Source: Bacteroidota bacterium (lineage in GTDB: Bacteria > Bacteroidota > Bacteroidia > Bacteroidales > Prolixibacteraceae). From it: a stretch of 39,148 bases of DNA. Of the stretch, positions 2,398 through 20,239 are shown piece by piece (positions within the stretch are counted from its first letter, which is position 1; each line of letters begins with the position of its first letter). The stretch lies in the NCBI GenBank assembly GCA_030698405.1, contig JAUYMU010000017.1, positions 1-39,148 of the forward strand, read 5' to 3'. The notes beneath the pieces were generated by a model. That model searched no databases and was not told the DNA's origin. It was given only the letters and a program-made list of their open reading frames with translations. Both the position numbers and the translations under genes were made by a program.

Positions 2398-2460
2398 AAT
2401 TTGCAGATAGTGACGAATTATAATCCCGACAACATTAATGATGTCAAAACAAAATAACCT

Positions 2461-4860: not shown

Positions 4861-4879
4861 ACCACTAAACAGAATTAAA

Positions 4880-6190: not shown

Positions 6191-6209
6191 TCATCTAAAC
6201 CAACATAAA

Positions 6210-8483
6210 ATGAAAATCTTATTATTTGGCTTTTTAATCTGTTTTTCAATTCATTCTTTTGCCCAAAATCCATCACCAGTTGATTCCGTCAACACCTTGA
6301 TGGGCTCCGATTCGGAGTTTAAACTCTCAAGCGGTAACACCTATCCGGCCATTGCGTTGCCATGGGGAATGAATTTCTGGACACCACAAACCGCCAAAAT
6401 GGGCGACGGTTGGGTGTATGCATACGATGCCTACAAAATTCAGGGCTTCAAGCAAACACATCAGCCCAGTCCGTGGATCAACGATTACGGCCAGTTTTCG
6501 CTTTTCCCTTCGACCGGAGAATTGAAAATTGCAGGAGAAGAACGTGCAAGCTGGTTTTCGCACAAAGCTGAAACTGCCAAACCTCATTATTACAGTGTTT
6601 ACCTGGCCGATTACGATGTAACTACTGAAATTACACCTACTGAGCGGGCAGCCATTTTTCGTTTTACTTTTCCTGAAAACGAAAAATCGTGGGTATTGGT
6701 CGATGCTTTCGACAGGGGTTCGTACATCAAAATTATTCCTGAAGAAAATAAAATCATCGGTTTCACAACCAGAAACAGCGGCGGCGTTCCCGAGAATTTT
6801 AAAAATTATTTTGTGGTGGTTTTCGACAAGTCATTTGCTGAAAGTCAGGTATGGAGCGGTAAAGAAATCGTGTCAGGAAAGTCTGAACTTCAGGATATAC
6901 ACGTAGGCGCTGCCATTCGCTTTGTGACAAAAAAAGGTGAAAAGGTTCATGCAAGAGTTGCCTCTTCATTCATTAGTTTCGATCAGGCTGAACTGAATCT
7001 GAAAGAATTGGGAAAAGACAACTTCGATCAGGTTTGCCAAAAGGGGAAAGAGATATGGAACAAAGAACTGTCGCGTATTTCAGTGGAAGGCGGAACGACC
7101 GATCAAATCAGGACTTTTTATTCGTGTTTGTACCGAACATTGTTGTTTCCACGGAAGTTCTTCGAGTTCGATAAAGATGGTAAAATGGTACATTACAGTC
7201 CTTATAACGGACAGGTTTTGCCGGGAGCAATGTTTACCGACAACGGATTCTGGGACACATTCCGCGCTGTTTTTCCATTCTTTAACCTGATGTATCCCGC
7301 ACTGAACGCACAGATTCAGGAAGGTTTGGTAAATACTTACAAGGAAAGCGGTTTTCTTCCTGAATGGGCAAGCCCGGGACACCGCGATTGTATGATCGGC
7401 TCCAACTCGGCCACCATTGTGGCAGATGCCTACCTGAAAGGCGCCCGCGGCTACGACATCAATACGCTTTATGAAGCCGTGATTAAAAACAGCAAAACGG
7501 AAGGTCCTTTGTCTTCGGTTGGGCGGAAAGGTGTTGATTATTACAACAAGTTGGGATACGTTCCTTACGATGTGAAGATCAACGAAAATGCCGCCCGGAC
7601 CCTCGAATATGCTTTTGCCGACTGGACGATCTGGAAACTGGCCAAAGAGTTGAAACGTCCTCAGGCCGAAATTGATTTGTTTGCCAAACGCGCAATGAAT
7701 TACCGGAATGTGTTCGATAAGGAAACCAAACTGATGCGTGGTAAAAACGAAGACGGTTCATTCCAGAAACCGTTCAATCCGTTTAAATGGGGCGATGCAT
7801 TTACCGAAGGAAACAGCTGGCATTACACATGGTCGGTTTTTCACGATGTGCAGGGATTGGTTGATCTGATGGGAGGAAGGAAGGAATTTGTTTCGATGCT
7901 CGACTCTGTTTTTGTTGTTCCACCAATTTTTGATGAATCGTATTACGGACAGGTGATTCACGAAATACGCGAAATGCAGATCATGAATATGGGCAATTAT
8001 GCGCACGGCAACCAGCCCATTCAGCACATGATTTACCTGTACAATTACGCCGGTGAGCCCTGGAAAACACAAAAATGGGTGCGCGAGGTGATGGATCGCA
8101 TGTATCTGCCAACGCCAGACGGCTATTGCGGCGATGAGGACAACGGCCAAACTTCAGCATGGTACGTTTTCTCGGCTATGGGATTCTATCCGGTTACTCC
8201 CGGAAGCGACGAATATGTTTTGGGCGCACCTTTGTTCAAAAAAATTACGGTGAAACTCGAAAACGGGAAGGAATTAATTCTGAACGCTCCTGAAAATAGT
8301 TCTGAAAACAAATACATTCAATCGGTGACTTTAGATGGGAAACCATACAGCAAAAACTGGCTGAGCCATCGTGAACTGATGAAAGGTGCTACCATCAATT
8401 TTAAGATGATTGCAACTCCCGATCTGAAAAGAGGTATTAATGAGGCCGATTTTCCATATTCGTTTTCGAATGAGAAGCGGTAA
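6210..8483 (+). CDS. GH92 alpha-mannosidase, secreted
   Basis: A 757-residue GH92 enzyme with a cleavable type I signal peptide (hydrophobic core 3-15, SFAQ around residue 19). Distinctive features are the VNTLMGSDSEFKLSSGNTYPAIALPWGMNFWTPQ opening (residues about 26-60), typical of a GH92 subgroup different from the BT3990-like alpha-1,2 group, and HGNQPIQHMIYLYNY and GDEDNGQTSAWY (from residue 641) in the catalytic domain. It is the last plus-strand gene of the locus. Its TAA stop (8481-8483) is immediately followed by the complement of the stop codon of the opposing GH92, so the two genes share a zero-base junction and their transcripts must overlap. No terminator hairpin is visible between them. 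Confidence 0.93.
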   Translation: MKILLFGFLICFSIHSFAQNPSPVDSVNTLMGSDSEFKLSSGNTYPAIALPWGMNFWTPQTAKMGDGWVYAYDAYKIQGFKQTHQPSPWINDYGQFSLFPSTGELKIAGEERASWFSHKAETAKPHYYSVYLADYDVTTEITPTERAAIFRFTFPENEKSWVLVDAFDRGSYIKIIPEENKIIGFTTRNSGGVPENFKNYFVVVFDKSFAESQVWSGKEIVSGKSELQDIHVGAAIRFVTKKGEKVHARVASSFISFDQAELNLKELGKDNFDQVCQKGKEIWNKELSRISVEGGTTDQIRTFYSCLYRTLLFPRKFFEFDKDGKMVHYSPYNGQVLPGAMFTDNGFWDTFRAVFPFFNLMYPALNAQIQEGLVNTYKESGFLPEWASPGHRDCMIGSNSATIVADAYLKGARGYDINTLYEAVIKNSKTEGPLSSVGRKGVDYYNKLGYVPYDVKINENAARTLEYAFADWTIWKLAKELKRPQAEIDLFAKRAMNYRNVFDKETKLMRGKNEDGSFQKPFNPFKWGDAFTEGNSWHYTWSVFHDVQGLVDLMGGRKEFVSMLDSVFVVPPIFDESYYGQVIHEIREMQIMNMGNYAHGNQPIQHMIYLYNYAGEPWKTQKWVREVMDRMYLPTPDGYCGDEDNGQTSAWYVFSAMGFYPVTPGSDEYVLGAPLFKKITVKLENGKELILNAPENSSENKYIQSVTLDGKPYSKNWLSHRELMKGATINFKMIATPDLKRGINEADFPYSFSNEKR

Positions 8484-10676
8484 CTAGTTCGGTTCCGCAC
8501 CCATCGTAAATTCGAGTGTTCCGCCATCCATAATTTCCTGATGGGTAATGAATGAACGATCCAGTTTTTGTCCGTTTAGTTTAACTTCCTGAATGTATTT
8601 ATTTTCGACCGATGCAAGCGGGGCTTTCATGGTAAAGAATTTTCCCTGGGCTATTTCAATTTTAGCTTCCTGAACCAGTGGTGAGCCAAACTGATATTTT
8701 AATTCTGCCGGATTCACCGGATAAAAGCCCATTGCGCTGAAAATATACCATGCCGACATTTGTCCGCAATCTTCGTTTCCGCAAATTCCTTCGGGGGTAG
8801 CGGTGTACATTTCGGTCTGAATCCGGCGGTTCAGTTCCTGCGTGCGATATGGCCTTCCGGCGTAATTAAAAAGGAAAGTGGTGTGATGCCCTGGTTCGTT
8901 TCCGTGGGCATAAGCGCCAATTAATCCTGAAATATCGTTCGAAGCCTCTTCGCCTTTTACTCCTTCTTCAACATTAAACAACTGTTCGAGCTTATCGGCA
9001 AAAGGTTCTTTTCCTCCAAGCAATTCAATCAAACCTTCCACATTTTGCGGAACCAGCCACAAATATTGCCATGCGTTTCCCTCGGTATAATCGCTGCCTT
9101 CATGTTTCGAGAAAGCCGGATCAAATGGAGTTGTCCACGCTCCGTTGCTCAGTTTTCCGCGCATAAAACCGGTTTCCTTGTCGAAATACTGTTTGAAACT
9201 TTCGGCGCGTTTGAAGAAATAAGCAGCGTCTTCGGTTTTGCCCAGCTTCTGCGCAACGGCAGCCACACACCAGTCGTCAATGGCCACTTCGAGCGATTTG
9301 GCAACCGACTGCTGAATTTTATCGGCAGGCATGTATCCTAATTTATCGTACAATCCCATTCCGTCGCGGTCGTGCATCGAAGTAACTTTCATTGCTTCAA
9401 AAGCCAGTTCATGGTCAAAATCGCCGATGCCTTTCAGTATTGCTTCAGCAATTACCGGGATGGAATGATTGCCAACCATACAGAAAGTTTCATTTCCTTG
9501 CAGTTCCCAAACGGGCAGCAATCCTGTTTGGCGGTAATGATCGAGCATTGACTTTACCATGTCGTTCACGCGCGGTTGCTGGGTTAGAGTAAATAATGGG
9601 TGTAATGCGCGGTAAGTATCCCACAACGAAAAAACTGTATATCGGTTGTATCCGCTTGCATTTTGCACATCGCCTTTGGTTCCTTTGAATTCGCCGTTTG
9701 TGTCTGAAAATAAGGCTGGTGCAACCATTGTGTGATACAGTGACGTATAAAAAATGGTTTTCTGAACCGAATCGTTCGACTGAATTTTGATTTTCGAAAG
9801 TTCTTTTTCCCAGGCGTCGGATGCGGCTTGTGCAGTGGCTTCAAAATCCCAGCCCGGCAATGACGAATCGAGGTTTGCCAGTGCATTTTCGATGCTGACG
9901 GATGAAACGCCAACTTTGGCCATCACCTGTTTTTCATTGAATTTCAGCAGGCCAACAGTACGGCCTTCGCCGCCAACATTGGTAATTTCTGACTTCGAAA
10001 TGGGTTGCGAAAAGCGAACAGCAAAAAATACATGCTGATCGGCTGCCCAGCCTTTCGATAAACGTGATCCGGTAACCAGCAAACTATCAACGATATTCAG
10101 GGTAGTTTGGTATGGTTTGTCCCAGTTAATTGCAAAACCGAGATTGATCAGCAGATTGTTTTCGCCTCCTTCAGGAAAAGAATAACGGTGCAAGCCCGCT
10201 CTTTCTGTTACCGTAAATTCAGCTTTTATGCCATTGTTTTTTAGTGTTACAGCATAATAACCAGGCTTTGCTGTTTCCTGATCGTGGCTGTATTTTCCGG
10301 CGTAACGGGTAACAAAATCAGCATTTTTTTCGCCTTCCTGAAATGTCACTTCCGAAGTTACCGGTAAAAATGAAATATCGGCCAAATCGCCGATTCCGGT
10401 TCCGCTCAGGTGGAGGTGACTGAAACCTGCCACAACACTGTCGGAATAATGATAACCCGAGCACCAGTCCCAGCCTTGAGTGCCGTTATCGGGGCTCAAT
10501 TGTATTTGTCCGAACGGATAAGCGGCCCCGGGAAAAGTGTGTCCATGATAGCCGGTTCCGATAAACGGATCGACGAAATCTGTCAAACGATCCTCCTGAA
10601 TTGAGTTGGTTGAAGTTCCGGTGCAGGCTGCCAAAAGCAATAATGCTCCGGAAATGGTGTAAATAAACTTGTTCAT
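8484..10676 (-). CDS. GH92 alpha-mannosidase, lipoprotein (BT3990-like group)
   Basis: A 730-residue GH92 enzyme with lipobox LAAC (Cys18). The N-terminal DFVDPFIGTGYHGHTFPGA and GWDWCSGYHYSD segments, the AYAHGNEPGHHTTFLFNYAG loop and GNEDCGQMSAWYIFSAMGFYPV (from about residue 633) are the arrangement I associate with the alpha-1,2-mannosidase group typified by Bacteroides BT3990; the +1-site tryptophan and the GNEP loop are both present, unlike in the three plus-strand paralogues. Specificity remains inferred. It is transcribed alone toward the plus-strand GH92 row. A -7-like element (TACTTTTG on the minus strand, 10699-10706) lies 22 bases upstream of the ATG and slightly overlaps nothing but the short gap and tail of the archaemetzincin gene. 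Confidence 0.94.
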   Translation of the reverse strand: MNKFIYTISGALLLLAACTGTSTNSIQEDRLTDFVDPFIGTGYHGHTFPGAAYPFGQIQLSPDNGTQGWDWCSGYHYSDSVVAGFSHLHLSGTGIGDLADISFLPVTSEVTFQEGEKNADFVTRYAGKYSHDQETAKPGYYAVTLKNNGIKAEFTVTERAGLHRYSFPEGGENNLLINLGFAINWDKPYQTTLNIVDSLLVTGSRLSKGWAADQHVFFAVRFSQPISKSEITNVGGEGRTVGLLKFNEKQVMAKVGVSSVSIENALANLDSSLPGWDFEATAQAASDAWEKELSKIKIQSNDSVQKTIFYTSLYHTMVAPALFSDTNGEFKGTKGDVQNASGYNRYTVFSLWDTYRALHPLFTLTQQPRVNDMVKSMLDHYRQTGLLPVWELQGNETFCMVGNHSIPVIAEAILKGIGDFDHELAFEAMKVTSMHDRDGMGLYDKLGYMPADKIQQSVAKSLEVAIDDWCVAAVAQKLGKTEDAAYFFKRAESFKQYFDKETGFMRGKLSNGAWTTPFDPAFSKHEGSDYTEGNAWQYLWLVPQNVEGLIELLGGKEPFADKLEQLFNVEEGVKGEEASNDISGLIGAYAHGNEPGHHTTFLFNYAGRPYRTQELNRRIQTEMYTATPEGICGNEDCGQMSAWYIFSAMGFYPVNPAELKYQFGSPLVQEAKIEIAQGKFFTMKAPLASVENKYIQEVKLNGQKLDRSFITHQEIMDGGTLEFTMGAEPN

Positions 10677-10707: not shown

Positions 10708-11238
10708 TCAAATCATCAGATTCAACTTGCACTGATTGCACAGATGATGGCTCTTTTGATCAATATCTTCCACATACGTGCTCGACCTCATCACACAATC
10801 GGGATTTTTGCAGTGTATCAATCCAAAAGTATGGCCGAGTTCGTGGATAACTTCCTTCCGGATTCGATCGACAAAGATTTGTCCGTTGGCTTTGATTCCG
10901 TAGCGTTCATTGTTCAGCCTGTAAACAGAGGCGATGCCAGCGCGCCCGTTTAAAAAGGCCTGTCCGAAAATATAGGTAAGAATGGGGATAAAAAGGTCAA
11001 CATTAAATATTCCGAGTATTTTAACCCTGTCGGAAGCAAACCGGAAATCAATTTCCTTTATCAGCTTGTTTCCATCGTATTGCCTTCGGGCCGAATCATA
11101 AAATTCACTTAAATCCAAATGTCCATCCTGAATTTTTACCGGAAGTGAAAACTCTCGTTCTACGTCATTCACGACCATTTCAAGAAGTTCTTTCTCGAAA
11201 TATCCAAATGAAATTAACGTGATGTTATCAAGATTCAT
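10708..11238 (-). CDS. amzA: archaemetzincin family zinc protease
   Basis: A 176-residue cytoplasmic zinc metalloprotease of the archaemetzincin (M54) family. The full signature is present: HELGHTFGLIH at residues 132-142 gives the three zinc ligands and the catalytic glutamate; Cys143 and Cys148 (x4 spacing) follow; Met150 is the metzincin Met-turn; and Cys167/Cys170 (CNQC) complete a likely structural second zinc site. There is no signal peptide. Length is normal for the prokaryotic form. Family members are putative aminopeptidases with poorly known substrates. It is the last gene of the minus-strand run that starts with the redox module and its two-component system, 37 bases after the response regulator, so co-transcription with them is possible; a functional link is not shown by the sequence. 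Confidence 0.92.
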   Translation of the reverse strand: MNLDNITLISFGYFEKELLEMVVNDVEREFSLPVKIQDGHLDLSEFYDSARRQYDGNKLIKEIDFRFASDRVKILGIFNVDLFIPILTYIFGQAFLNGRAGIASVYRLNNERYGIKANGQIFVDRIRKEVIHELGHTFGLIHCKNPDCVMRSSTYVEDIDQKSHHLCNQCKLNLMI

Positions 11239-11275
11239 TCACAATCAGTTTAATAGAAGCCAGATTGGTTCCTGA

Positions 11276-12616
11276 TTAATTGGCAGGTTTTAAATCGTAT
11301 TTCTTTATTTTGTTGTAGAGCGTTACTCTGTCAACTTTCAGGGCTTTGGCCGAAACCGAAATGTTCCAGTTGTATTTGCTGAGAATTTGAAAAATGTGGT
11401 TTTTTTCGAGGTCGTCAAGGCTTTCAAAAGTGGTATTGACGACCGTTTTTCCCAATGGAAGATCTTTAAGGCTGATTTTTTTACCGTTTCCAACTACAAT
11501 TGCGCGCTCGATCATGTTTTCAAGTTCGCGTATATTGCCCGGAAACGGGAATTCTTCCAGACGTTTTAATGCTCCTGAATCGATGGAAATAAGCGGTCTG
11601 TTCATTGACATGCAGTACTTTTTGATAAAGTAATCAACAAGTAACGGAATGTCCTCAATCCGCTCGCGCAGTGGCGGAACATTGATATTTACCACGTTTA
11701 GCCTGTAAAAAAGGTCTTCGCGAAAAATCCCTTTTTCCACCATGCTTTTCAAATCTCTGTTGGTGGCACAAATTACCCGGAAATCAGAAGATATTTCCTT
11801 GTTGCCGCCAACGCGCACAAAACTCTTGCTTTCGAGTACCCGCAGCAATTCAACCTGCATTTTTTGTGAAATCGTAGCAATTTCATCCAGAAAAATGGTG
11901 CCGCTGTCGGCCATTTCAAACCGTCCTTTGCGATTGTAAACAGCTCCGGTAAAAGCGCCTTTTTCGTGTCCGAAAAGTTCGCTTTCCAGCAAACTTTCGC
12001 TTAACGCGCCGCAATGTACGCTTACCATCGGGAAAAATTTGCGGGGCGAATTTGCATGGATGGCCCTGGCTACCAGCTCTTTTCCTGTTCCACTTTCGCC
12101 TGTTATTATTACTGAAGCATTTGACTGGGCAACACTTTCAATTTCTTTGAGCACTTTCTGCATCGCTTCGCTGTTGCCAATCAAATCTTCCACGTTTTCC
12201 AGCGAAACTACTTTTTCCTTCAGGATTTCATTTTCTTCAAGCAAAGAAATTTGATTTGACGCGTTTCTGATGAGGTGGGAGAGATCGTCGGGATCGAAAG
12301 GTTTTGTCACATAATCGAATGCGCCGTCTTTCAATGCCTGAACTGCTGTGTCAACAGTTGCAAATGCGGTCATCATGATAACGATGGATTCTTTTCGCAG
12401 CGATTTTATTCGCTTTAGCATTTCAAGGCCATCCATTCCGGGCATTTTAATATCGGCCAAAATGATATCAAAATTGTCGGATTCAAGCATCGACAATGCT
12501 TTCTTCGCATTTTCGGCACATTCAACGCGGTATCCGTCTTCAATAAACCAGTTGAACAATGAGTCTCTAACCGATTCTTCATCATCGACGATTAGTATGG
12601 ATATTTTTTTTGCCAT
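11276..12616 (-). CDS. sigma-54-dependent response regulator (NtrC/AtoC type)
   Basis: A 446-residue activator with three domains. The receiver (1-120) has acidic pair Asp11/Asp12, phosphorylation site Asp55 (LADIKMP) and Lys105 (TKPF). The AAA+ sigma-54 interaction domain (about 143-370) has Walker A GESGTGKE at 173-180 and GAFTGA at 220-225, the loop that contacts sigma-54. A Fis-type helix-turn-helix sits at the C-terminus (SAKALKVDRVTLYNKIKKY). It is therefore expected to activate sigma-54 promoters on phosphorylation. It starts 12 bases after the stop of the heme-motif histidine kinase, its evident partner. A sigma-54-like -24/-12 element lies upstream of the redox operon at 19161-19175, which makes that operon the natural target (inference). 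Confidence 0.96.
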   Translation of the reverse strand: MAKKISILIVDDEESVRDSLFNWFIEDGYRVECAENAKKALSMLESDNFDIILADIKMPGMDGLEMLKRIKSLRKESIVIMMTAFATVDTAVQALKDGAFDYVTKPFDPDDLSHLIRNASNQISLLEENEILKEKVVSLENVEDLIGNSEAMQKVLKEIESVAQSNASVIITGESGTGKELVARAIHANSPRKFFPMVSVHCGALSESLLESELFGHEKGAFTGAVYNRKGRFEMADSGTIFLDEIATISQKMQVELLRVLESKSFVRVGGNKEISSDFRVICATNRDLKSMVEKGIFREDLFYRLNVVNINVPPLRERIEDIPLLVDYFIKKYCMSMNRPLISIDSGALKRLEEFPFPGNIRELENMIERAIVVGNGKKISLKDLPLGKTVVNTTFESLDDLEKNHIFQILSKYNWNISVSAKALKVDRVTLYNKIKKYDLKPAN

Positions 12617-12628
12617 AGTATTTTTTCC

Positions 12629-14302
12629 TTAAGTCCGTATCAGGGGTAAAGTTATTGAAATTGTTGTTTCTTTTCCGCGTATCGACTTTACATCAGTTTT
12701 CCCTTTGTGACTTTGAACAATGCCGTGAACAACGGCAAGACCCAATCCAATGCCGCTTTCTTTCTCCTTGGTTGAAAAGAAAGGTTCGAAAATGTGCGGA
12801 ATGTCCTCTTCCGCAATTCCAACTCCATTATCAGTAATTTCTATCCTGATGTGTTCCTCGTCCGGATTCAGTGTTCTGAAAATTACTTCGCCGTTTTCTG
12901 CAACAGCTTCGGAAGCATTCACAAGTATAGCCACGCAAACTTGTTTAATCTGGTTCGGGCTGCAACTGATCAGATCTGTTTTTGCGCCAAAATCAGACAA
13001 AAAGCCAATGTTTGCGACTTTCATCGGATGAGACATTAATTCAAATGTTTCAAGCAGAATTTCGTGAAGGTGCCTTGGCTGAAAATTATTCTGATCTTTC
13101 CGTGAAAAATCCAGTAAGCTATTTACAATCTCACCACAGCGTTTTGTTTCATTCTCAATAAGTTTCAAATGCCTCAGCATCGGTTCTTTCTTTGTTGGCG
13201 CAAAATCCTGATTGTTTAACTGCTTGTAAATTAATTTTGTGTAAATCAGAATTCCGGATAACGGATTGTTGATCTCGTGTGCTACCGACAATGATAATTT
13301 TCCCAGAGAGGCAATTCTTTCAATGTTTATCAGCTCGTTTTGGGCCTGTCCCAATTCTTCCGACTTTTTCTGAACTTTGTATTCGAGTTGCTGCGACCAG
13401 TTTTGAAGTTCGTTTGTGGCGGTTTGCAGGTTGTCAAGCATCTTATTAAAAGCGAACGAAACCATTCGCATGTCGGAAAGTTGATTGGGTTTTATTTCCA
13501 GACGGGTGTTTTTGTCGCCTTGTGCAACAGCTTCGCTTGCGGTAATAAGCTCATTTAAAGGATCTTTAATCTTTTTATTCGTAAATAGTATTAAAAATAT
13601 CAGGAGCAAAAAAGTCATCAAAGCTGCCAGCAATGTATAATCGGTTGTCGATTTTTTAAGCGCATTATCAAGTCTTTCAAGTGGCATTTTAATGATGAGT
13701 GAGCCAAGTACCTTATCTTCAGGACTGTGTGCATGGCATGAACTGGTTGAGCAGGATTTGTTGTTTAGAATTGGTGATTTGATTAACAAATGCCTGCTAT
13801 TCGTATTTGTATTTGGATTCATAATGCACTCACTGTCAGCATTAATTATCCGGTGCGATTTTTCATTGGCAGAAAACATGGTGCCGAAATCCTTGTGGCA
13901 ACTAATGCAGTCGGGGTCGCCATGATCGTCGGTATCGTTCGAAATTGAGGTATAAACAAGGTAGTTGTTGTTGTCGTACATATTAACATCATCAATTCCG
14001 GTCATGGTATTGATAATGTCAAGTGTTGCCTGAAGGGAAGTCCGGTCGTTTTCGAGCATGGAACGATACAAAGCACCCTCAACGAGGTAGCCGATATTAT
14101 TACCATTTTCACTAATCACCGATTTCATGTACTCCTCGTTTACCGATCGGAATATGATACCGAAAGATACAAACAGGAAAACCGACGAAATGGTGATGAT
14201 GAATACTACCCGTCCGTATATTGAAGAACGGAATTTCACATATCCCTTTATTAACGGACTTCCCAGGCTATTTTCACCAGTTATTTTTTTGAACCAACTC
14301 AT
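12629..14302 (-). CDS. membrane sensor histidine kinase with periplasmic c-heme motifs
   Basis: A 557-residue kinase. TM1 is at about 32-51 and TM2 at about 222-240, enclosing a 170-residue periplasmic domain. That domain carries CISCH at 132-136, a canonical CxxCH c-heme motif, and CSTSSCH at 184-190, a CX4CH variant, with further histidines (H150, H171, H192) that could act as axial ligands. A HAMP domain follows (about 241-295), then a coiled coil (295-330), the H-box SVAHEINNPLSG with phospho-acceptor His342, and an ATPase domain (N-box NASEA, DNGVGI, GLGLAV). The heme motifs suggest sensing of redox state or a small heme ligand in the periplasm. It is paired with the sigma-54-dependent regulator immediately downstream and sits directly after the redox module genes. 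An AT-rich inverted repeat lies just upstream (14314-14339). Confidence 0.93.
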   Translation of the reverse strand: MSWFKKITGENSLGSPLIKGYVKFRSSIYGRVVFIITISSVFLFVSFGIIFRSVNEEYMKSVISENGNNIGYLVEGALYRSMLENDRTSLQATLDIINTMTGIDDVNMYDNNNYLVYTSISNDTDDHGDPDCISCHKDFGTMFSANEKSHRIINADSECIMNPNTNTNSRHLLIKSPILNNKSCSTSSCHAHSPEDKVLGSLIIKMPLERLDNALKKSTTDYTLLAALMTFLLLIFLILFTNKKIKDPLNELITASEAVAQGDKNTRLEIKPNQLSDMRMVSFAFNKMLDNLQTATNELQNWSQQLEYKVQKKSEELGQAQNELINIERIASLGKLSLSVAHEINNPLSGILIYTKLIYKQLNNQDFAPTKKEPMLRHLKLIENETKRCGEIVNSLLDFSRKDQNNFQPRHLHEILLETFELMSHPMKVANIGFLSDFGAKTDLISCSPNQIKQVCVAILVNASEAVAENGEVIFRTLNPDEEHIRIEITDNGVGIAEEDIPHIFEPFFSTKEKESGIGLGLAVVHGIVQSHKGKTDVKSIRGKETTISITLPLIRT

Positions 14303-14313
14303 CGCAGTTACCT

Positions 14314-14339
14314 TAATTTAGTTTTTGAATGCTAAATTA
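14314..14339. repeat. AT-rich inverted repeat before the sensor kinase gene
   Basis: TAATTTAG (14314-14321) and CTAAATTA (14332-14339) are perfect inverted arms of 8 bases around a 10-base spacer, starting 12 bases upstream of the kinase ATG. It could be an operator or chance in AT-rich DNA. Confidence 0.3.
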
Positions 14340-14361
14340 GTCTCAAAACTTTAATTCAGGT

Positions 14362-15132
14362 TCAACTATTCAAATTTGTTTCACTTCTTCGGAAACAATT
14401 GTTCTTTTTGCATAAAACTTTGGTACTCAAAAAATCTTTCTGGAACTCTTCCCATATTTCATTTGGAAGTTCAGAAAGCGGTTGATCAATCAATTCGCCG
14501 CCATCCTGCAATAGTATGCTTTCCTGCATTGGTGAATATTTTCCCAATGAAGTGGCCAAGAAATCCTTAAACCTTTCCAGTTCCTGTGTTGCCCAGGATG
14601 TTGCATCTTCGGCAATGTAATATGAATTGGTGTCGGCAATCCAGCTTGTAGGCTTAATTTCGTACAACCAGCCTTTTCCGTATGAATCTTCGTTTAACAG
14701 TTCTGGAGATTTAGCCAGTTCTGAATTTATCGTCCTAATCTCTCCTGAAATTGGGGAGTAAATCTTTAAAATTTTGCCCTGTTGGTTAATTTCTGCCAGT
14801 AAGTCGCCTTTTTTTACTTTCTCGCCAGCATATTTAAGGCTGTTGAAATTTACTTTGCCGGTAATATGCAGCAACAAATCATCGAGACCAACCTTCGCGA
14901 CTCCAGTCATTTCAAGATGTGTCCAGGTGTGAAATCTGCTGAAGAGAATACCCTGAGGAATTTTTAAAGAGTTGGATGTGAGAATTCCTAAGGACTTTTG
15001 AAGTTGTTTTTTAGGCTTCACCTCTCTGTTTAATATTAGCCAGAAAGGAATAAGGATTACAAAAAACACAGCGATTGCCAAATATTCAATCCCTTTTGTT
15101 TCGAAAATGTTGATGTAAGTAAATCCGTCCAT
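14362..15132 (-). CDS. membrane-anchored GcvH-like (lipoyl-domain fold) protein
   Basis: A 256-residue protein with one N-terminal membrane span (16-34) followed by a positively charged stretch (NREVKPKK), which places the rest in the cytoplasm. Residues about 60-165 align with glycine cleavage H protein: FSRFHTWTHLE matches the YSKEHEW opening, VGLDD the VGIT strand, and YSPISGEI plus SPELLN and GWLYEIKP the C-terminal half. In an ungapped alignment the lipoyl-lysine position is Gly119, with Lys120 next to it, so the modification site is shifted or lost. The tail carries ILLQDGGELIDQPL and an acidic WEEF segment shared with the large protein at the head of the operon. It follows NrfD after a 131-base gap containing a long hairpin. 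It is not a true glycine cleavage component: no gcvT or gcvP is nearby. Confidence 0.82.
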   Translation of the reverse strand: MDGFTYINIFETKGIEYLAIAVFFVILIPFWLILNREVKPKKQLQKSLGILTSNSLKIPQGILFSRFHTWTHLEMTGVAKVGLDDLLLHITGKVNFNSLKYAGEKVKKGDLLAEINQQGKILKIYSPISGEIRTINSELAKSPELLNEDSYGKGWLYEIKPTSWIADTNSYYIAEDATSWATQELERFKDFLATSLGKYSPMQESILLQDGGELIDQPLSELPNEIWEEFQKDFLSTKVLCKKNNCFRRSETNLNS

Positions 15133-15204
15133 AGTTTTATTTTTTTATGCTGTCTTCAAAAATGGTTTCGTGACAGCTGGTTTGTTTTTATTTTTTTTCT
15201 TTCA

Positions 15205-15260
15205 CCCTTCGACAGGCTCAGGGAGCAATAGTCGATGCGCTCCCTGAGCCTGTCGAAGGG
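15205..15260. repeat. 22-bp perfect inverted repeat (REP-like hairpin) inside the redox operon
   Basis: Arms 15205-15226 and 15239-15260 are perfectly complementary over 22 bases and enclose a 12-base loop. The core CTTCGACAGGCTCAGGGA is a variant of a palindromic repeat widespread in Bacteroidota and other genomes. It begins four bases past the NrfD stop codon and would form a very stable stem in the operon mRNA, just before the second GcvH-like gene. It is a different family from the REPs around the RAYT gene. Confidence 0.9.
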
Positions 15261-15263
15261 AGT

Positions 15264-16502
15264 TTAATCACTATTTATTTTTTTTTCTTTCAAGGGGGAA
15301 AAGTCACTGAGAACTGGCATACGACGGATAACCCATCTGAAAATCCAGATTTCAGTAAAAATAACTGCAAGCGTAACAACAATTTCCATCCACGATGGAA
15401 CATAGGGTACTGCGGCATCCCATCTGAAACCAATTACGGTAACATTAAGCCTGTTAACGATTATGCCAAGCATTGTCAAAATAGCTGCGATCCGAATCAG
15501 CAGAACATCTCCGGTGCGGTAACTGTAAAAAAACAGCATCATCGGAACAAGCACAAAACCCAGCATCTCAACCAAAAACCAGTAACCCATCGGGGTATTT
15601 AAATAAACCCAGTTCTTTCCGTGAATAAATACAAGGAAATGTAAACAGAAGTAGGCAAACATGGCTACCGCACATATTTTTGACAAACCGTGGATGATTC
15701 CATGTTGGGCTTTTTTATTTTTGTCACTGATTTTGTTGAAAAATACTTTGTGACTAATCGCACCTTCGAAAATGACCATCGATAATCCTGCAAAGACACT
15801 GGATACCAAAAATAAAATTGGAATAAATTCGGAATACCACAGCGGATGAATTTTGTCTTTCGCCATCAGATAGAGCGCGCCCAAACCTGATTGGTGCAGT
15901 GTTGACAAGGTTATTCCGAAGATTACAGCTCCGATGGACATTCCTGAAAGTATTTTATGTGCACGTCTGGATCCGATCCATTCAGCAATGGCAGGTGAAA
16001 ATTCGATCAGAAGGGCAAGCATATAAAGTACAAAATGCCATGCCACCAGAAACAGTACCGAACTGGTTCCGAAACTATTGCCAATCATCGGGTTAATTAC
16101 ATTCCACGGGCGACCTAAGTCGAGCAGCAAAGCTCCGGTGTAAAATGCGTAGGCAAGAAAGCCGTTCAGTACAGTTACCCTCACAATGGAATGATATTTT
16201 TTCATGTTCAGGATATATACCATAAATGTGACCACATATGCGCCTCCGGCAAATGCAACTCCGGTAACCACGTCAAAACCAATCCACAAACCCCACGGAA
16301 CGTCCTGAGTTAAATTTGTAATTGAGCCCAGACCTTTCCAAAACCGAATCACAATCAGGAAAAAGCCCAAAAGAATGATGGGTATTGAAATAATATTAAA
16401 TGGGGTTAGCCATTTTCCTTTCGGTTTTAATTCACTGACTAAAAATCGCCAGTTAATTTTGCGTTCATTTTCCCTGACAATAGGATAGGCCTGGTTAATC
16501 AT
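15264..16502 (-). CDS. NrfD/PsrC-type polytopic membrane subunit
   Basis: A 412-residue integral membrane protein of the NrfD/polysulfide reductase C family, which exchanges electrons between quinone and a partner iron-sulfur subunit. About ten hydrophobic segments run through the protein (for example IISIPIILLGFFLIVI, AYVVTFMVYIL, VLFLVAWHFVLYMLALLIEF). I place the start at the ATG at 16502: its first bases overlap the ferredoxin stop in the sequence ATGATTAA, an 8-base overlap typical of translational coupling. The longer frame beginning at 16577 would run deep inside the ferredoxin gene with an unrelated 25-residue extension. Pairing of Tat-exported ferredoxin plus NrfD is the standard electron-transfer unit of Psr, Nrf, Hyb and Dsr-type complexes, but no catalytic oxidoreductase or multiheme cytochrome accompanies it here. 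Confidence 0.92.
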   Translation of the reverse strand: MINQAYPIVRENERKINWRFLVSELKPKGKWLTPFNIISIPIILLGFFLIVIRFWKGLGSITNLTQDVPWGLWIGFDVVTGVAFAGGAYVVTFMVYILNMKKYHSIVRVTVLNGFLAYAFYTGALLLDLGRPWNVINPMIGNSFGTSSVLFLVAWHFVLYMLALLIEFSPAIAEWIGSRRAHKILSGMSIGAVIFGITLSTLHQSGLGALYLMAKDKIHPLWYSEFIPILFLVSSVFAGLSMVIFEGAISHKVFFNKISDKNKKAQHGIIHGLSKICAVAMFAYFCLHFLVFIHGKNWVYLNTPMGYWFLVEMLGFVLVPMMLFFYSYRTGDVLLIRIAAILTMLGIIVNRLNVTVIGFRWDAAVPYVPSWMEIVVTLAVIFTEIWIFRWVIRRMPVLSDFSPLKEKKINSD

Positions 16503-17355
16503 GGTCTTCTTCTTTAGTTTGGTTATTTTTAGTTGCAGCGTAAATTCCAAGCAGGAGTGGTGGCAGAAGTAAATCAACAGAAGGAACGGTGTAGAGGAAT
16601 CCCTTTGTAAGCTCCGGATAGGAAGAGTTTTGAAGTTTGGTATTTAATCCCAATTCATTAAACGGAACAGGTGAAAGGTATAACCAACCGGTACCACCTG
16701 CTGTGTCTTCCCCATAAATCTGACTGATGTAATCGTTTGGGTTTTCTGCGATTCGTTGCCTGGCTTCGGCTATAAGTTCCCTGCGTGTTCCAAAAATAAT
16801 GGCATCACCGCAGGTTTCGGCACAAACCGGTATTTCACCATTTTTAATTCGGTCGTAACACATGTCACATTTCTGAATTTTTGGATTTGCACTATGAAAT
16901 TCAAATTTCGGAACATCAAACGGGCACGAAACCATGCAATACCGGCATCCCATGCATTTTTCTTCTCTCCATATAACCGGTCCTTCTTTTGTTTTTAGCA
17001 TGGCCTCTGTCAAACAAGCCGCGGCACAGGCCGGTTCGTTGCAATGCATACACTGGTTTTTTACGAATGCTTCGCCTTTTGTTGTTTCGAATTTACTGAT
17101 GACGCTGCGTTGCGATTCACTGGTATCCCTTTTTACTCCAGCTACCAGTTCTCCCTGAGGTTCGGGCAGATCATGCGCTTTTGCGCAGGCTTTTTCACAA
17201 GCTCTGCACCCGATGCAACGAGTTGAATCATAAAGCATTCCATAAAATTCGATTTCACTACTTTCTGGAGTCGATGCTCCAAAACTCTTACCCACAGCGA
17301 GGGAAATCCCAATAAGTCCGGCTGTTTTGAAAAAGATTCGCCTATCGATACTCAT
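16495..17355 (-). CDS. Tat-exported 4x[4Fe-4S] ferredoxin subunit (HybA/DsrO/PsrB-like)
   Basis: A 286-residue electron-transfer subunit. The N-terminus DRRIFFKTAG (4-13) is a twin-arginine signal followed by a hydrophobic stretch, so the folded protein is exported. Sixteen cysteines form four clusters: 47/50/53/57, 102/105/110/114, 134/137/140/144 and 163/166/178/182, each in the spacing typical of DmsB/HybA-type subunits. A hydrophobic C-terminal segment (about 259-274) could anchor it to the membrane beside NrfD, as in HybA. The stop overlaps the NrfD start (ATGATTAA), so the two subunits are translationally coupled. By analogy, it would pass electrons between a periplasmic partner and the NrfD quinone site; that partner is not encoded here. 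Confidence 0.95.
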   Translation of the reverse strand: MSIDRRIFFKTAGLIGISLAVGKSFGASTPESSEIEFYGMLYDSTRCIGCRACEKACAKAHDLPEPQGELVAGVKRDTSESQRSVISKFETTKGEAFVKNQCMHCNEPACAAACLTEAMLKTKEGPVIWREEKCMGCRYCMVSCPFDVPKFEFHSANPKIQKCDMCYDRIKNGEIPVCAETCGDAIIFGTRRELIAEARQRIAENPNDYISQIYGEDTAGGTGWLYLSPVPFNELGLNTKLQNSSYPELTKGFLYTVPSVDLLLPPLLLGIYAATKNNQTKEEDHD

Positions 17356-17399
17356 AATTTTAGTTGTTTATGGTTGTTAGAGAGTATTCTAAAAATCAA

Positions 17400-19079
17400 T
17401 TATTTGGAGGTGTCAATAAATTTTGTCTGAAAATCTTCCCATACTTCCGGTTCAAGATCGGCCAGAACATTGTCAGTAAGTTCGCCTCCATCCTGAAGTG
17501 TGATGTGTGCGTAAGCCAAACTGTTTATCCTTGCTGAGGCTGCAAAAAAGTCTTTGAGTCGGGTAAATTCATTTTGTAACCATTCGCGGTAATTTTCGCC
17601 CATTATCATGAACTGAATTTCCCTTAACCAGTTTTTTGGTTCAATCAGATAGATCCAACCTTTTGAAAAGGGAGAAGAATTGATCATTGAAGTATCAGAA
17701 ATGAGTTTTTGGTTTTGTTCTACGATAATGCCCGAAATGGGGGAGTAGATATTTAATTGTTTGCCATCACGAACAATGGTAAGGATCTTTTCACCCTTTC
17801 GTACCATTTCACCGGGTTCTTTCATGATGATGCGATTGAGTGTTCCGGTAACATGTTGCATGAAATCGTCGAGGCCAACTTTCACATTTCCATCTTTTTC
17901 CATAAATGCCCAGGTGTGTGTTTTGTCGAAATAGAGACCCTTGGGAGCAGTCACCAAATGTTCATTAAATGCCTTGACGGAATTGTCATGTTCATTTACT
18001 GCGATCTGATTTCTGTTTTTCCGGTATCCGACAACAGCAGTTATTATTGATGCGGCAACAACAAAACCCAAAAGAATTAGCATCCAGGTTTTTGAAGTAA
18101 AAGGTTCGTCTGTTTGAGCTTCCGTAACATTCGTTCCTATTAAGGCATCAATGTTCGAATGTATTTCGACACTGGCCAGATCGCTGTATCCGTTTTTATT
18201 CAGAAATTGCTGCCCATCGGCAAGTATCCATGTTAAAAATGCAACAGTATTCTCATCTGTTGGTTTGGCGGATGAGGCTGCGTAAATACTTCCGCATAAA
18301 TCATGTGGATATTTTCCGATCCAAACGCCGCGGGTGAAATCGCTCAGGTTTTCGTAAATATTTTCAAAATTATCAATCCGGCCATTTTTGTTTTTATCTA
18401 TCGGAAGTAGCTTAATTCCCTCAATTGTATTATTGGTCGAAGCATCACGAACGTCAGTCAGTTTGCAAAATCCAATGGCATAAATATCCTTCTGAACAGC
18501 CAAAATAAGTTCTGCAGCGTTTGCAACCAGAACTCCATTTATTGCTTCTGAATTTGTTTTGCTGAAATTTGCAAGGTTCGTTTTTACTGATTCGTTGTTA
18601 ATAACAAAGTAATTGATGCGTGCATTCTTTCCGCCATCAATCATGGTTTCCCAATTCTGCATTTCGGGATTACCTAAAAGTTGTGCAAACTCTTCTGCTG
18701 AAATGCCCTGGCGATAGATTTCGTTCAGCATTGGATTTTTCGCGTTGACGACCGATACGATCGCATCGCGGCCAATTACCATTTTCCATGCTGTTTCGCC
18801 AATTTCTTCAGTAATAAAGCTGAGATCGTTGCCGGTGGTGGTTTGATTATCAGTCATGTTGCTTACAGCAATTTTCATGTCTGGATTTAACCTGCCATAT
18901 TCAATAGCCCAATTGGTTGCGAGGTTGTTCAATTCCGGAGAGCTCAAAATATTTAATGTATTCTCTGCGGAAGTTTTGGTTTGAACTCCTGTTTGGTTGT
19001 CGGTTTGTTCATTGCCCATACTTGTTTTGCAAAAGAATAGAAGCGACAACCCGATGATTAATACTGAAATGTTTTTCAT
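17400..19079 (-). CDS. PstS-like periplasmic binding domain fused through one TM to a GcvH-like domain
   Basis: A 559-residue protein with an unusual architecture. After a signal peptide (1-22), residues about 40-310 resemble type II periplasmic binding proteins of the PstS/PBP-like group (LNILSSPELNNLATNWAIEY at the start; AFLTWILADGQQFLNKNGY near the end). Inside lies DKNKNGRIDNFE (228-239), a textbook EF-hand calcium loop. A single TM (331-351) followed by YRKNRN sends the remainder into the cytoplasm. Residues about 375-480 are GcvH-like (YFDKTHTWAFME, VGLDDFMQHVTG, IYSPISGI, GWIYLIEP). The ungapped lipoyl position is Gly439, with Lys440 adjacent. The tail LQDGGELTDNVL with an acidic WEDF segment matches the second GcvH-like protein. 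It is the first gene of the ferredoxin-NrfD operon; a sigma-54-like element lies 82 bases upstream. The substrate is unknown. Confidence 0.85.
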   Translation of the reverse strand: MKNISVLIIGLSLLFFCKTSMGNEQTDNQTGVQTKTSAENTLNILSSPELNNLATNWAIEYGRLNPDMKIAVSNMTDNQTTTGNDLSFITEEIGETAWKMVIGRDAIVSVVNAKNPMLNEIYRQGISAEEFAQLLGNPEMQNWETMIDGGKNARINYFVINNESVKTNLANFSKTNSEAINGVLVANAAELILAVQKDIYAIGFCKLTDVRDASTNNTIEGIKLLPIDKNKNGRIDNFENIYENLSDFTRGVWIGKYPHDLCGSIYAASSAKPTDENTVAFLTWILADGQQFLNKNGYSDLASVEIHSNIDALIGTNVTEAQTDEPFTSKTWMLILLGFVVAASIITAVVGYRKNRNQIAVNEHDNSVKAFNEHLVTAPKGLYFDKTHTWAFMEKDGNVKVGLDDFMQHVTGTLNRIIMKEPGEMVRKGEKILTIVRDGKQLNIYSPISGIIVEQNQKLISDTSMINSSPFSKGWIYLIEPKNWLREIQFMIMGENYREWLQNEFTRLKDFFAASARINSLAYAHITLQDGGELTDNVLADLEPEVWEDFQTKFIDTSK

Positions 19080-19160
19080 GATATTGACATTTAAAAGTGT
19101 TCTTGAAATTTGGCCATTGATTCAGATCATTGAAAAATCTGCAATCATATTTTGGGCAAT

Positions 19161-19175
19161 TCAACAACAATGCCA
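19161..19175 (-). promoter_or_regulatory. sigma-54-like -24/-12 element
   Basis: The minus strand reads TGGCATTGTTGTTGA. It matches the -24 TGGCA and the TTG of the -12 box at exactly the right spacing, but the last conserved base is A rather than C (TTGA instead of TTGC). It would start transcription about 70 bases before the first redox gene. The presence of a dedicated sigma-54-dependent regulator in the same gene run makes it credible despite the mismatch. Confidence 0.4.
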
Positions 19176-19251
19176 AATATAAAATAGCTATGTAAGTGTC
19201 AGTATATCAAATGAATGAAAAGAAAGTGAGTGAAAAACAAACAAGAAGAGG

Positions 19252-19348
19252 TGTTGAATAAATATACAGTGTGTTTGCATTGTTTTCGTAAGAGTTAGAT
19301 AATCAATAGTATAAGTTAATTGATTAATTAATATACACTGTTGAATAA
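19252..19348. repeat. paired TGTTGAATAA / AATATACA boxes (possible activator sites)
   Basis: TGTTGAATAA occurs at 19252-19261 and again at 19339-19348. AATATACA-type elements flank them (19261-19268 and 19330-19337), and ACAGTGT occurs once on each strand (within AATATACAGTGT and AATATACACTGT). They lie 80-180 bases upstream of the sigma-54-like element, where enhancer-binding proteins usually bind. Confidence 0.35.
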
Positions 19349-19534
19349 TGCATCATTAGCTTTTTTAATCTACTGAAAATAAAAGGTATATGATACAGCA
19401 TGGTTTTAATGGATCTCAATTGCGAAATGAAGCTTGAGGACAAATCTTCGGAATAAAAAAATGGAAGACAAATTTCTTTATCTCCCATAATGATCCTGAA
19501 ATATCAAATTAACCAGTGCTTTCTAATTGCTTTC

Positions 19535-20239
19535 TCAAATCTGTTCAAGACCGTGGTGATGCGTCCATCTGAATTTATTGTCATCAAAATCGGTAGCAAA
19601 AATCACATCTTTCAATAGTGCATCAGTCCTCTCGCGGCCATTTTCAAAAGAATAATATTTTGATTTAATTTCTATCTCTTTATAAATTGGTTCGAGCGCT
19701 AATATTCCAGTAAAAGTAAAAAGTCCAAGTTCATTATCAACGCCTTCACGTTTTGACTTTATTCGTACAATCTCGTAGATCGAACTTTGGTTAATCCATT
19801 CATAATCCATCCCACACCAATCAAAGCGGAAATCTGTAACCTGCCTGCCACTTTTGTCAATGTAGCCCCATTTCCCATTTCGTTCCACCGATATATATGT
19901 ATCGTCTAACCACCCTTCATCAATACTATCAAAAAAATCAGTAAGGTTATTGCCGTAGAAATCCATTAATGCATATTTTCTATCACCATACGTTTTTGTC
20001 GGATCGTCAACCACAAAGGAAACACCATTGTCAAAGGGGTTATTTGTAATGATGCAAGAGTTATCAATGTGGAAATCATACTTCCTGACAAGCCTACCTC
20101 TAAAATCAAAAATATAATTCTCGTGACAAAGCCAATCGCCAGGATCGACAAAGTTGATTATACTGGGGTCAAAGCCTAGATTTTCAAGTTCTGACATTTC
20201 TTCGTTGTCATCGTAAATATCATCTTGGTCGCCGTACAT
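19535..20239 (-). CDS. WG-repeat protein
   Basis: A 234-residue acidic cytoplasmic protein with no signal peptide. The segment VERNGKWGYIDKSGRQVTDF is a clear WG repeat (PF14903-type beta repeat), and weaker copies can be seen around YALMDFYGNNLTDFFDSID and GLFTFTGILALEPIY. WG-repeat proteins are common, varied and mostly uncharacterised in Bacteroidota. It starts 54 bases after the stop of the type IIG restriction-modification gene, on the same strand, so both may be read from one transcript; whether it is functionally tied to it is unknown. The opening MYGDQDDIYDDNEEM is strongly acidic. Confidence 0.72.
   Translation of the reverse strand: MYGDQDDIYDDNEEMSELENLGFDPSIINFVDPGDWLCHENYIFDFRGRLVRKYDFHIDNSCIITNNPFDNGVSFVVDDPTKTYGDRKYALMDFYGNNLTDFFDSIDEGWLDDTYISVERNGKWGYIDKSGRQVTDFRFDWCGMDYEWINQSSIYEIVRIKSKREGVDNELGLFTFTGILALEPIYKEIEIKSKYYSFENGRERTDALLKDVIFATDFDDNKFRWTHHHGLEQI

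Follow-up and report, generated by a model that had tools for sequence, protein, structure and literature searches.

GcvH-like domains as possible docking and regulatory partners of NrfD-type quinone complexes in Bacteroidota

Introduction

What might proteins with the fold of the glycine cleavage H protein (GcvH) be doing beside a ferredoxin, an NrfD-family membrane subunit and a two-component system? The question is raised by a cluster of seven genes in a 39,148-nucleotide stretch of a Prolixibacteraceae genome (GenBank assembly GCA_030698405.1, contig JAUYMU010000017.1; this whole stretch is hereafter the window). All seven lie on the minus strand within 10708-19079 and encode, in the order of transcription, a fusion of a PstS-like with a GcvH-like domain, the ferredoxin, NrfD, a second GcvH-like protein with a transmembrane segment (TM-GcvH), a histidine kinase, a response regulator and an archaemetzincin (Table 1). 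A preliminary description that had placed its gene set on one strand is thus borne out for every gene, and the archaemetzincin joins the members that its title had listed.

The answer proposed here, to which we lean tentatively and at somewhat less than even confidence, is that the GcvH-like domain would serve as a non-catalytic docking or regulatory subunit for NrfD-type quinone complexes and as an output domain of two-component systems. This is suggested because the lipoyl lysine is absent, because a membrane anchor is present, because the domain occurs fused to receivers, and because it is frequently found in the company of different NrfD complexes. As judged from sequence, two sets make up the locus. 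One is regulatory and comprises TM-GcvH (the PstS-like domain being present or absent), the kinase, the sigma-54 regulator and the archaemetzincin; the other, which is detachable, is the redox set of ferredoxin, NrfD and second TM-GcvH.

GcvH-like domains without the lipoyl lysine

Both proteins belong to the GcvH family: the Pfam model GCV_H (PF01597) matches residues 382-503 of the fusion with E 8.5e-23 and the second protein, which has a single hydrophobic stretch at residue 9, with E 6.4e-22, and the AlphaFold2 (AF2) model of the fusion (mean predicted local distance difference test score, pLDDT, 79.7) matches the GcvH structure 1onl with a target-normalised TM-score of 0.89. What, then, occupies the position of the lipoyl lysine? 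In HMMER alignments to solved GcvH proteins from the PDB, the residue that falls on what we take to be this lysine is a Gly. A joint alignment of 249 GcvH-like domain sequences, in which the genome's own GcvH is included under two labels, has Gly in this column in 78 of the 79 fusions and in 60/66 second GcvHs, and Lys in the genome's own GcvH as well as in 15/16 canonical GcvHs from other genomes with a readable motif (20 taken). Lys is found in only 2/40 TM-GcvHs of other genomes of the phylum and in 2/14 forms from the Qrc-like loci described below; among the receiver forms, it occupies the column in 9/25 long ones, and Asp does so in 18 of the 23 short ones. Lipoylation was rejected as a general mode of action on the basis of this alignment.

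The preliminary description had likened these proteins to the lipoate-binding GcvH proteins of the sHdr pathway, and the explanation that follows its view would make them lipoate-binding carriers of electrons or acyl groups that work with the NrfD core as LbpA does with sHdr. Fold and family, by Pfam and structure, fit such a role, as does the invariance, in 78/78 aligned fusions, of the pair G439-K440, in which K440 stands beside the lipoyl position. However, that position is itself a Gly, the Lys is shifted by one residue and lies, in the model of the fusion, directly past a hairpin turn (strands 431-437 and 440-445), and even the shifted Lys varies in the TM-GcvHs of other genomes of the phylum. 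Since the lipoyl lysine is absent, the analogy with the sHdr pathway is not supported, and we consider a lipoate carrier very unlikely. The nearest GcvH-like precedent is LbpA, and the paper on it deals with lipoylated proteins (PMC6067878). GcvH, the sHdr-associated LbpA and the cluster's proteins have the GcvH fold in common, whereas the latter lack the lipoyl lysine, are anchored in the membrane and carry a C-terminal extension. In a tree of 105 sequences, the canonical GcvHs group together, though weakly supported (0.51). The fusions, the second GcvHs and each of the two receiver forms are likewise single branches, unlike the plain TM-GcvHs and the forms from Qrc-like loci.

Receiver fusions and other NrfD settings

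Where else do such domains occur? In a sample of 395 genomes of the phylum, stretches were fetched around matches to the fusion or the archaemetzincin, and three further settings were seen. The first consists of one or two copies of TM-GcvH, ferredoxin, NrfD, often a further GcvH, then kinase, response regulator and archaemetzincin. In the second, GcvH-like genes stand around genes that by size and order are those of QrcA, QrcB, QrcC and QrcD, beside a set of kinase, archaemetzincin and response regulator; GcvH flanks the Qrc-like genes on both sides in L135, L137, L141, L145 and L146 and on one side in L143. In L137, the sole Qrc-like locus scanned with these models, QrcA passes its cut-off (219 vs 180 bits), QrcD stands at it (569.9 vs 570), and QrcB (259.4 vs 440) and QrcC (366.4 vs 400) fall under theirs.

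In the third setting, a ferredoxin, NrfD, a protein with 13 CxxCH motifs and a kinase of ~625 residues are followed by two response regulators with a GcvH-like output, one a soluble receiver-GcvH (REC-GcvH) protein of ~265 residues, the other a membrane-anchored TM-REC-GcvH of ~385. Twenty stretches were fetched for long GcvH-bearing frames, and both regulators and the kinase were present in all 20; ferredoxin, NrfD and the 13-CxxCH protein precede the REC-GcvH genes in 19, the twentieth (L172) ending ~1.2 kb past the kinase. Response_reg and GCV_H both exceed their Pfam cut-offs in 4/4 REC-GcvH proteins examined, the DDE, D and K positions of the receiver are kept by consensus in the 25 long and 23 short forms, and the long forms have one hydrophobic segment in 25/25, near the N-terminus in 24. 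The genes of these two regulators (in L155-L174, e.g. L156:8168-10154, and at L119:12038-14048) lie behind an Hmc-like operon, often adjoining cytochromes with 16 and 19 hemes.

How regular is the company of NrfD? It is encoded within eight genes of 41/46 GcvH-like genes without a receiver and of 45/48 with one. This nearness is informative because the loci had been chosen by fusion or archaemetzincin matches and not by NrfD.

Conservation of the cluster and loss of its redox core

A scan of named genomes with the fusion yielded 103 relatives, of which the best 80 were kept, all from genomes titled Bacteroidota or members of that phylum; cluster members were counted at scores of at least 100 bits. 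The full order of seven genes on one strand is present in 52 of these 80 loci (48 plain, four with an extra kinase or response regulator reading frame), and 13 more are consistent with it and cut by contig ends. Nine are coreless: the kinase directly follows the fusion, ferredoxin, NrfD and second GcvH being absent, and response regulator and archaemetzincin come next in seven, two being cut. In the remaining six, the locus ends at the fusion (L052, L086), the triad of kinase, response regulator and archaemetzincin lies upstream (L064), the fusion stands alone (L092), or the core has no adjacent triad, with 2.9 and 7 kb seen after it (L060 and L113). L101, L104 and L107 have flanking genes in common and differ in the core: L104 has it, L107 lacks it and L101 retains only a ferredoxin stump of ~72 residues. 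The core thus looks to have been lost in one piece, with fusion and triad retained. Both the stump (L101:11737-11955) and a chimeric ferredoxin-kinase reading frame (L224:8404-9549) look like scars of a deletion of the redox core.

Could the coreless genomes keep this NrfD elsewhere? An HmcC-like NrfD was found at E 1e-10 in none of ten genomes searched (the nine coreless ones and L092), most of which are metagenome-assembled, L049 and L109 not being so labelled, and for which completeness is not given; the same query was positive in 5/5 control genomes with the core. The NrfD family model found one to four other NrfD-family proteins in each of five coreless genomes.

A second sample, of 198 genomes of the window's order not chosen by the cluster, was searched with a threshold of E 1e-60. 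Of these genomes, 27 contain the fusion or its GcvH part, 24 an HmcC-like NrfD and 22 both; five have the GcvH gene alone and two NrfD alone (Fisher p 2.4e-22, uncorrected for relatedness). In all 22 genomes with both, the matches share one contig with ~1.2 kb or less between them. The preliminary description had allowed that fusion, ferredoxin and NrfD might rarely occur together; this concern is answered, 22 of the 24 NrfD genomes among the 198 having an adjacent GcvH gene.

The coreless loci bring up a different explanation, namely that the GcvH-like domains act as co-sensors alongside the kinase, either by binding some metabolite or by passing on the state of the PstS-like domain, and do not contact NrfD directly. 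It would account for the persistence of GcvH, kinase, response regulator and archaemetzincin without the core in 7/80 loci (two more being cut after the kinase or the response regulator), and likewise in L220, L222, L223 and L225. On the other hand, where the core is missing, the second GcvH, being part of it, is missing too; GcvHs stand on the flanks of QrcABCD-like genes; and the receiver-GcvH proteins are, by their domains, signalling outputs and not inputs; we regard the co-sensor role as distinctly improbable.

The ferredoxin-NrfD core and known complexes

The likely NrfD start (Table 1) overlaps the ferredoxin gene by 8 bp, the start in the open reading frame (ORF) list, 16577, being an upstream TTG. 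Near the start of the ferredoxin stands DRRIFF, read by eye, which we take to be a motif of the twin-arginine translocation (Tat) type. NrfD scores 54 bits with PF03916, above the gathering score of 25.8, and has no PDB relative by sequence search. HmcB and HmcC are the best NCBIfam matches of ferredoxin and NrfD, and none of the complex models among the matches shown reaches its cut-off for either protein. The combination put together by the preliminary description is supported, in that an HmcB/HmcC-type redox core occurs with two GcvH-like domains, both predicted to be cytoplasmic, and with a heme-motif, sigma-54-dependent two-component system; the analogy with lipoate-binding GcvH is not.

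Table 1. Genes and control elements of the cluster (positions in the window)
Feature	Position	Strand	Description
Archaemetzincin	10708..11238	-	HExxHxxGxxHC, C-terminal CxxC
NtrC/AtoC-type response regulator	11276..12616	-	Response_reg, Sigma54_activat, HTH_8 (Fis-type helix-turn-helix)
Histidine kinase	12629..14302	-	Periplasmic sensor with CxxCH + CX4CH, HAMP, HisKA, HATPase
Second GcvH-like protein	14362..15132	-	N-terminal transmembrane segment, GcvH-like domain, same C-terminal extension as fusion
NrfD-family membrane subunit, HmcC/HybB-like	15264..16502	-	412 residues
Tat-type ferredoxin, HmcB/HybA-like	16495..17355	-	Exactly 16 Cys in four clusters, C-terminal hydrophobic segment
PstS-like/transmembrane/GcvH-like fusion	17400..19079	-	559 residues; from Pfam, AF2 model, hydrophobicity and alignment
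Sigma-54-type -24/-12 element	19161..19175	-	TGGCATTGTTGTTGA; begins 96 bases before fusion start
Upstream palindromic site	19251..19268	-	TGTATATTTATTCAACAC; putative response regulator binding site

How does this core compare with named complexes? An HmcB/NhcB-type ferredoxin and an HmcC/NhcC-type NrfD are shared with the Hmc complex (which we take to be HmcABCDEF) and the nine-heme Nhc complex of sulfate reducers, and the REC-GcvH loci share with them a 13-CxxCH protein as well, the cytochrome of L119 matching the HmcA and nine-heme models below their cut-offs. Unlike these complexes, the window has no HmcA/NhcA multiheme cytochrome (no reading frame in it has three or more CxxCH motifs, so that a multiheme cytochrome subunit is lacking), the cluster's proteins stay under the Hmc cut-offs (HmcB 306 vs 420, HmcC 399.6 vs 550 bits), and two GcvH-like proteins, kinase, regulator and archaemetzincin are added. 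With the menaquinone reductase Qrc (QrcABCD), the cluster has NrfD and ferredoxin in common, and the Qrc-like loci of Bacteroidota have GcvH-like genes and the same type of kinase, archaemetzincin and response regulator alongside; however, QrcC and QrcD score only 51.6 vs 400 and 80.7 vs 570 bits here, and there is no QrcA or QrcB among the cluster's genes. HybA and HybB of group 2 hydrogenases are a ferredoxin and an NrfD of the same type, with the cluster's proteins under the cut-offs (HybA 225.6 vs 263, HybB 252.1 vs 450 bits), and neither the cluster nor the ten other window genes checked include a hydrogenase gene. The claim that no named complex has this composition holds in so far as none is described in the open-access literature searched, which omits most subscription papers.

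That ferredoxin and NrfD would pass electrons to or from menaquinone, with a donor or acceptor in the periplasm at the other end, follows from their families (review PMC8076601, whose text uses none of the terms GcvH, glycine cleavage and response regulator). Might the cluster, then, be an ordinary quinone module of the Hmc, Nhc or Hyb kind, in which ferredoxin and NrfD do the work, the GcvHs are passive subunits for scaffolding or assembly, and the role of the two-component system is purely transcriptional? The HmcB and HmcC matches agree with this, and an NtrC-type regulator with a sigma-54 promoter would account for control by transcription alone. Yet it leaves unexplained both the GcvH-receiver fusions and the GcvH that stays with kinase, response regulator and archaemetzincin where the core is missing, and it appears to us somewhat unlikely.

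An HmcB/HmcC-like pair also occurs beside formate dehydrogenase-N alpha (L227:9648-14763 and L226:35-4477); the alpha gene of L227 is split into frames of 188 and 818 residues, as would result from a selenocysteine stop.

An optional PstS-like domain

The fusion begins with a signal segment, followed by the PstS-like periplasmic domain, one transmembrane segment (~327-350), the GcvH-like domain (~380-503, predicted to be cytoplasmic) and the C-terminal extension, whose conserved elements are LQDGGEL and then EVW..FQ; its hydrophobic stretches begin at residues 3 and 327. The Pfam model PBP_like_2 matches residues 94-245 slightly below its cut-off (E 1.4e-5, 25.5 vs 27 bits), and the model's structure matches include PstS (best 4jwo, E 5.7e-15). 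As to possible phosphate sensing by this domain, identity to the genome's own PstS is 26%, and three of four loops compared, which we take to be the phosphate ligand loops, differ; position 47 is Ser or Thr in 86% of fusions. Residues 228-239 of the domain form an EF-hand-like calcium loop, with the strict pattern in 57/78 fusions; as a speciality of the fusion it was dropped, the loop being common to stand-alone PstS-like proteins (L003:1438-2391).

Is this domain the heart of the system, as the preliminary description, with its emphasis on a periplasmic ligand, had implied? In 6/27 relatives of the window's order, the GcvH gene is unfused, five being core clusters that start with a plain TM-GcvH and one being coreless. 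The PstS-like domain is an optional addition, because these six do without it; the idea of a central periplasmic ligand domain is not supported, and that of the fusion as the heart of the system is overturned by its unfused relatives.

Kinase, response regulator and archaemetzincin

In the kinase, CxxCH and CX4CH precede the second hydrophobic stretch, and both motifs are present in 100/101 kinases of the loci. Its model (pLDDT 75.4) gave 50 structure matches, mostly sensor-kinase chains, and no sensor fold was assigned. The pair has the architecture of NtrC-type systems such as AtoSC and ZraSR, a kinase with a sigma-54 regulator, and differs from them by the periplasmic CxxCH + CX4CH sensor, the linked archaemetzincin and the GcvH outputs of related loci.

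The archaemetzincin scores 160.6 bits with NF033823, above the cut-off of 145; among its relatives, the full HExxHxxGxxHC is kept in 87/90 and the C-terminal CxxC in 67/90, and 52/395 genomes of the phylum have an archaemetzincin at E 1e-6. In the loci L114-L154, which are not an independent sample, having been picked by archaemetzincin or fusion matches, 30/32 archaemetzincin genes have a kinase and a response regulator within three genes, the exceptions being L144 and L134, the latter a clipped copy of the window. Six of these 30 genes, beside a kinase and a sigma-54 response regulator, have no NrfD or GcvH in the stretch seen. Archaemetzincins are described as a protease family of barely known biological importance (PMC3427221). 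According to the same paper, CarG of Myxococcus is an archaemetzincin-like protein with a link to regulation, in which it resembles the cluster's protein, and has another residue in place of the catalytic Glu of HEXXH, whereas HExxH is intact here. In the same circuit, the archaemetzincin probably has a regulatory or quality-control role.

Control region

How might the cluster be switched on? An element of the type TGGCA-N6-TTG[ACT] was found in 56 of 73 regions upstream of fusion genes, against 0-1 in ten base shuffles, the TGGCA-N6-TTGA variant being the product of unbiased counting. Palindromes of the type TGT-N10-AACA occur in 71 of these 73 regions (4-11 in ten base shuffles), mostly ~70-100 and 160-190 bases above the -24 element, and the window has a second half-like site 87 bases further up (~19330-19347). 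In ten genomes, the pair of sites stood before the fusion gene in six and nowhere in four, with four further places in three of those six, and its strict form matched this operon alone in the window's genome. The classical sigma-54 consensus gave a weak signal before the fusion (3/72 regions at 10 or more vs none in shuffles; the window scored nothing) and was found before GcvH genes of other loci in 6/43 vs 0.2. The sigma-54 promoter with its conserved upstream palindrome suggests self-regulation of the cluster, and we infer that the neighbouring response regulator may bind the palindrome.

A possible mechanism

How might these parts work together? The seven genes would form one operon, whose kinase may read the periplasmic redox or electron-acceptor state with c-type hemes and whose regulator would activate the operon it belongs to from the sigma-54 promoter. 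Ferredoxin and NrfD would exchange electrons between a periplasmic partner and menaquinone. The GcvH-like domains would carry neither acyl groups nor electrons; they might bind the NrfD complex at its cytoplasmic face and control how it assembles or how active it is. In the fusion, GcvH would receive a periplasmic state across the membrane from the PstS-like domain; in the REC-GcvH proteins, phosphorylation would take the place of this input. In coreless genomes, the partner of GcvH could be either another NrfD complex or the kinase itself.

Several findings weigh against a docking and regulatory role for GcvH as set out here. GcvH is retained in the nine coreless loci of 80, and no HmcC-like NrfD was found in 10/10 such genomes searched; GcvH therefore cannot act solely on this HmcC-like NrfD. 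Conversely, in two genomes of the order the HmcB/HmcC-like pair stands next to parts of formate dehydrogenase-N alpha, and no GcvH-like gene is present in the stretch seen, and so this NrfD type can work without GcvH. There is no NrfD near 8/94 GcvH-like genes (in L127, L136, L142, L152 and L172, the last two of which end within a few kb), the Lys at the lipoyl column of 9/25 long receiver forms makes lipoylation possible there, and what points to heme attachment in the kinase is a motif.

Neighbouring genes

Ten other window genes were checked, the neighbours on both flanks among them. They either have no relation to the cluster or were not recognised, and include glycosidases (GH92, GH94), an Eco57I-type methylase, an M20 peptidase and a major facilitator superfamily transporter; the gene at 19535-20239 has no family match in the scan. 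Beside the cluster, in 187-10676, Pfam identifies three GH92 genes and one of GH94 type, and the gene at 6210-8483 reads like another GH92. Between the NrfD and second GcvH genes, 15208-15257 contains a perfect 19-base inverted repeat, of which there are only two copies in the window; it is perhaps a dispersed palindromic repeat.

Implications

Respiratory complexes are usually described as transcriptionally controlled. It is conceivable, though we hold it to be doubtful, that a non-lipoylated GcvH fold became a dedicated domain for signal output and docking, and that its membrane-tethered, periplasm-coupled and phospho-controlled versions act directly on Hmc-like and Qrc-like complexes and not solely on genes. 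If so, receiver-GcvH beside Hmc-like complexes and GcvH around Qrc-like ones would allow quinone electron flow to be switched directly and reversibly at the level of protein, and a first role would be found for proteins that automated annotation likely calls glycine cleavage H proteins. The natural variants, with and without the periplasmic domain and with and without the redox core, make this reading testable, and the conserved tie between archaemetzincin and sensor system would offer a handle on a barely understood protease family.

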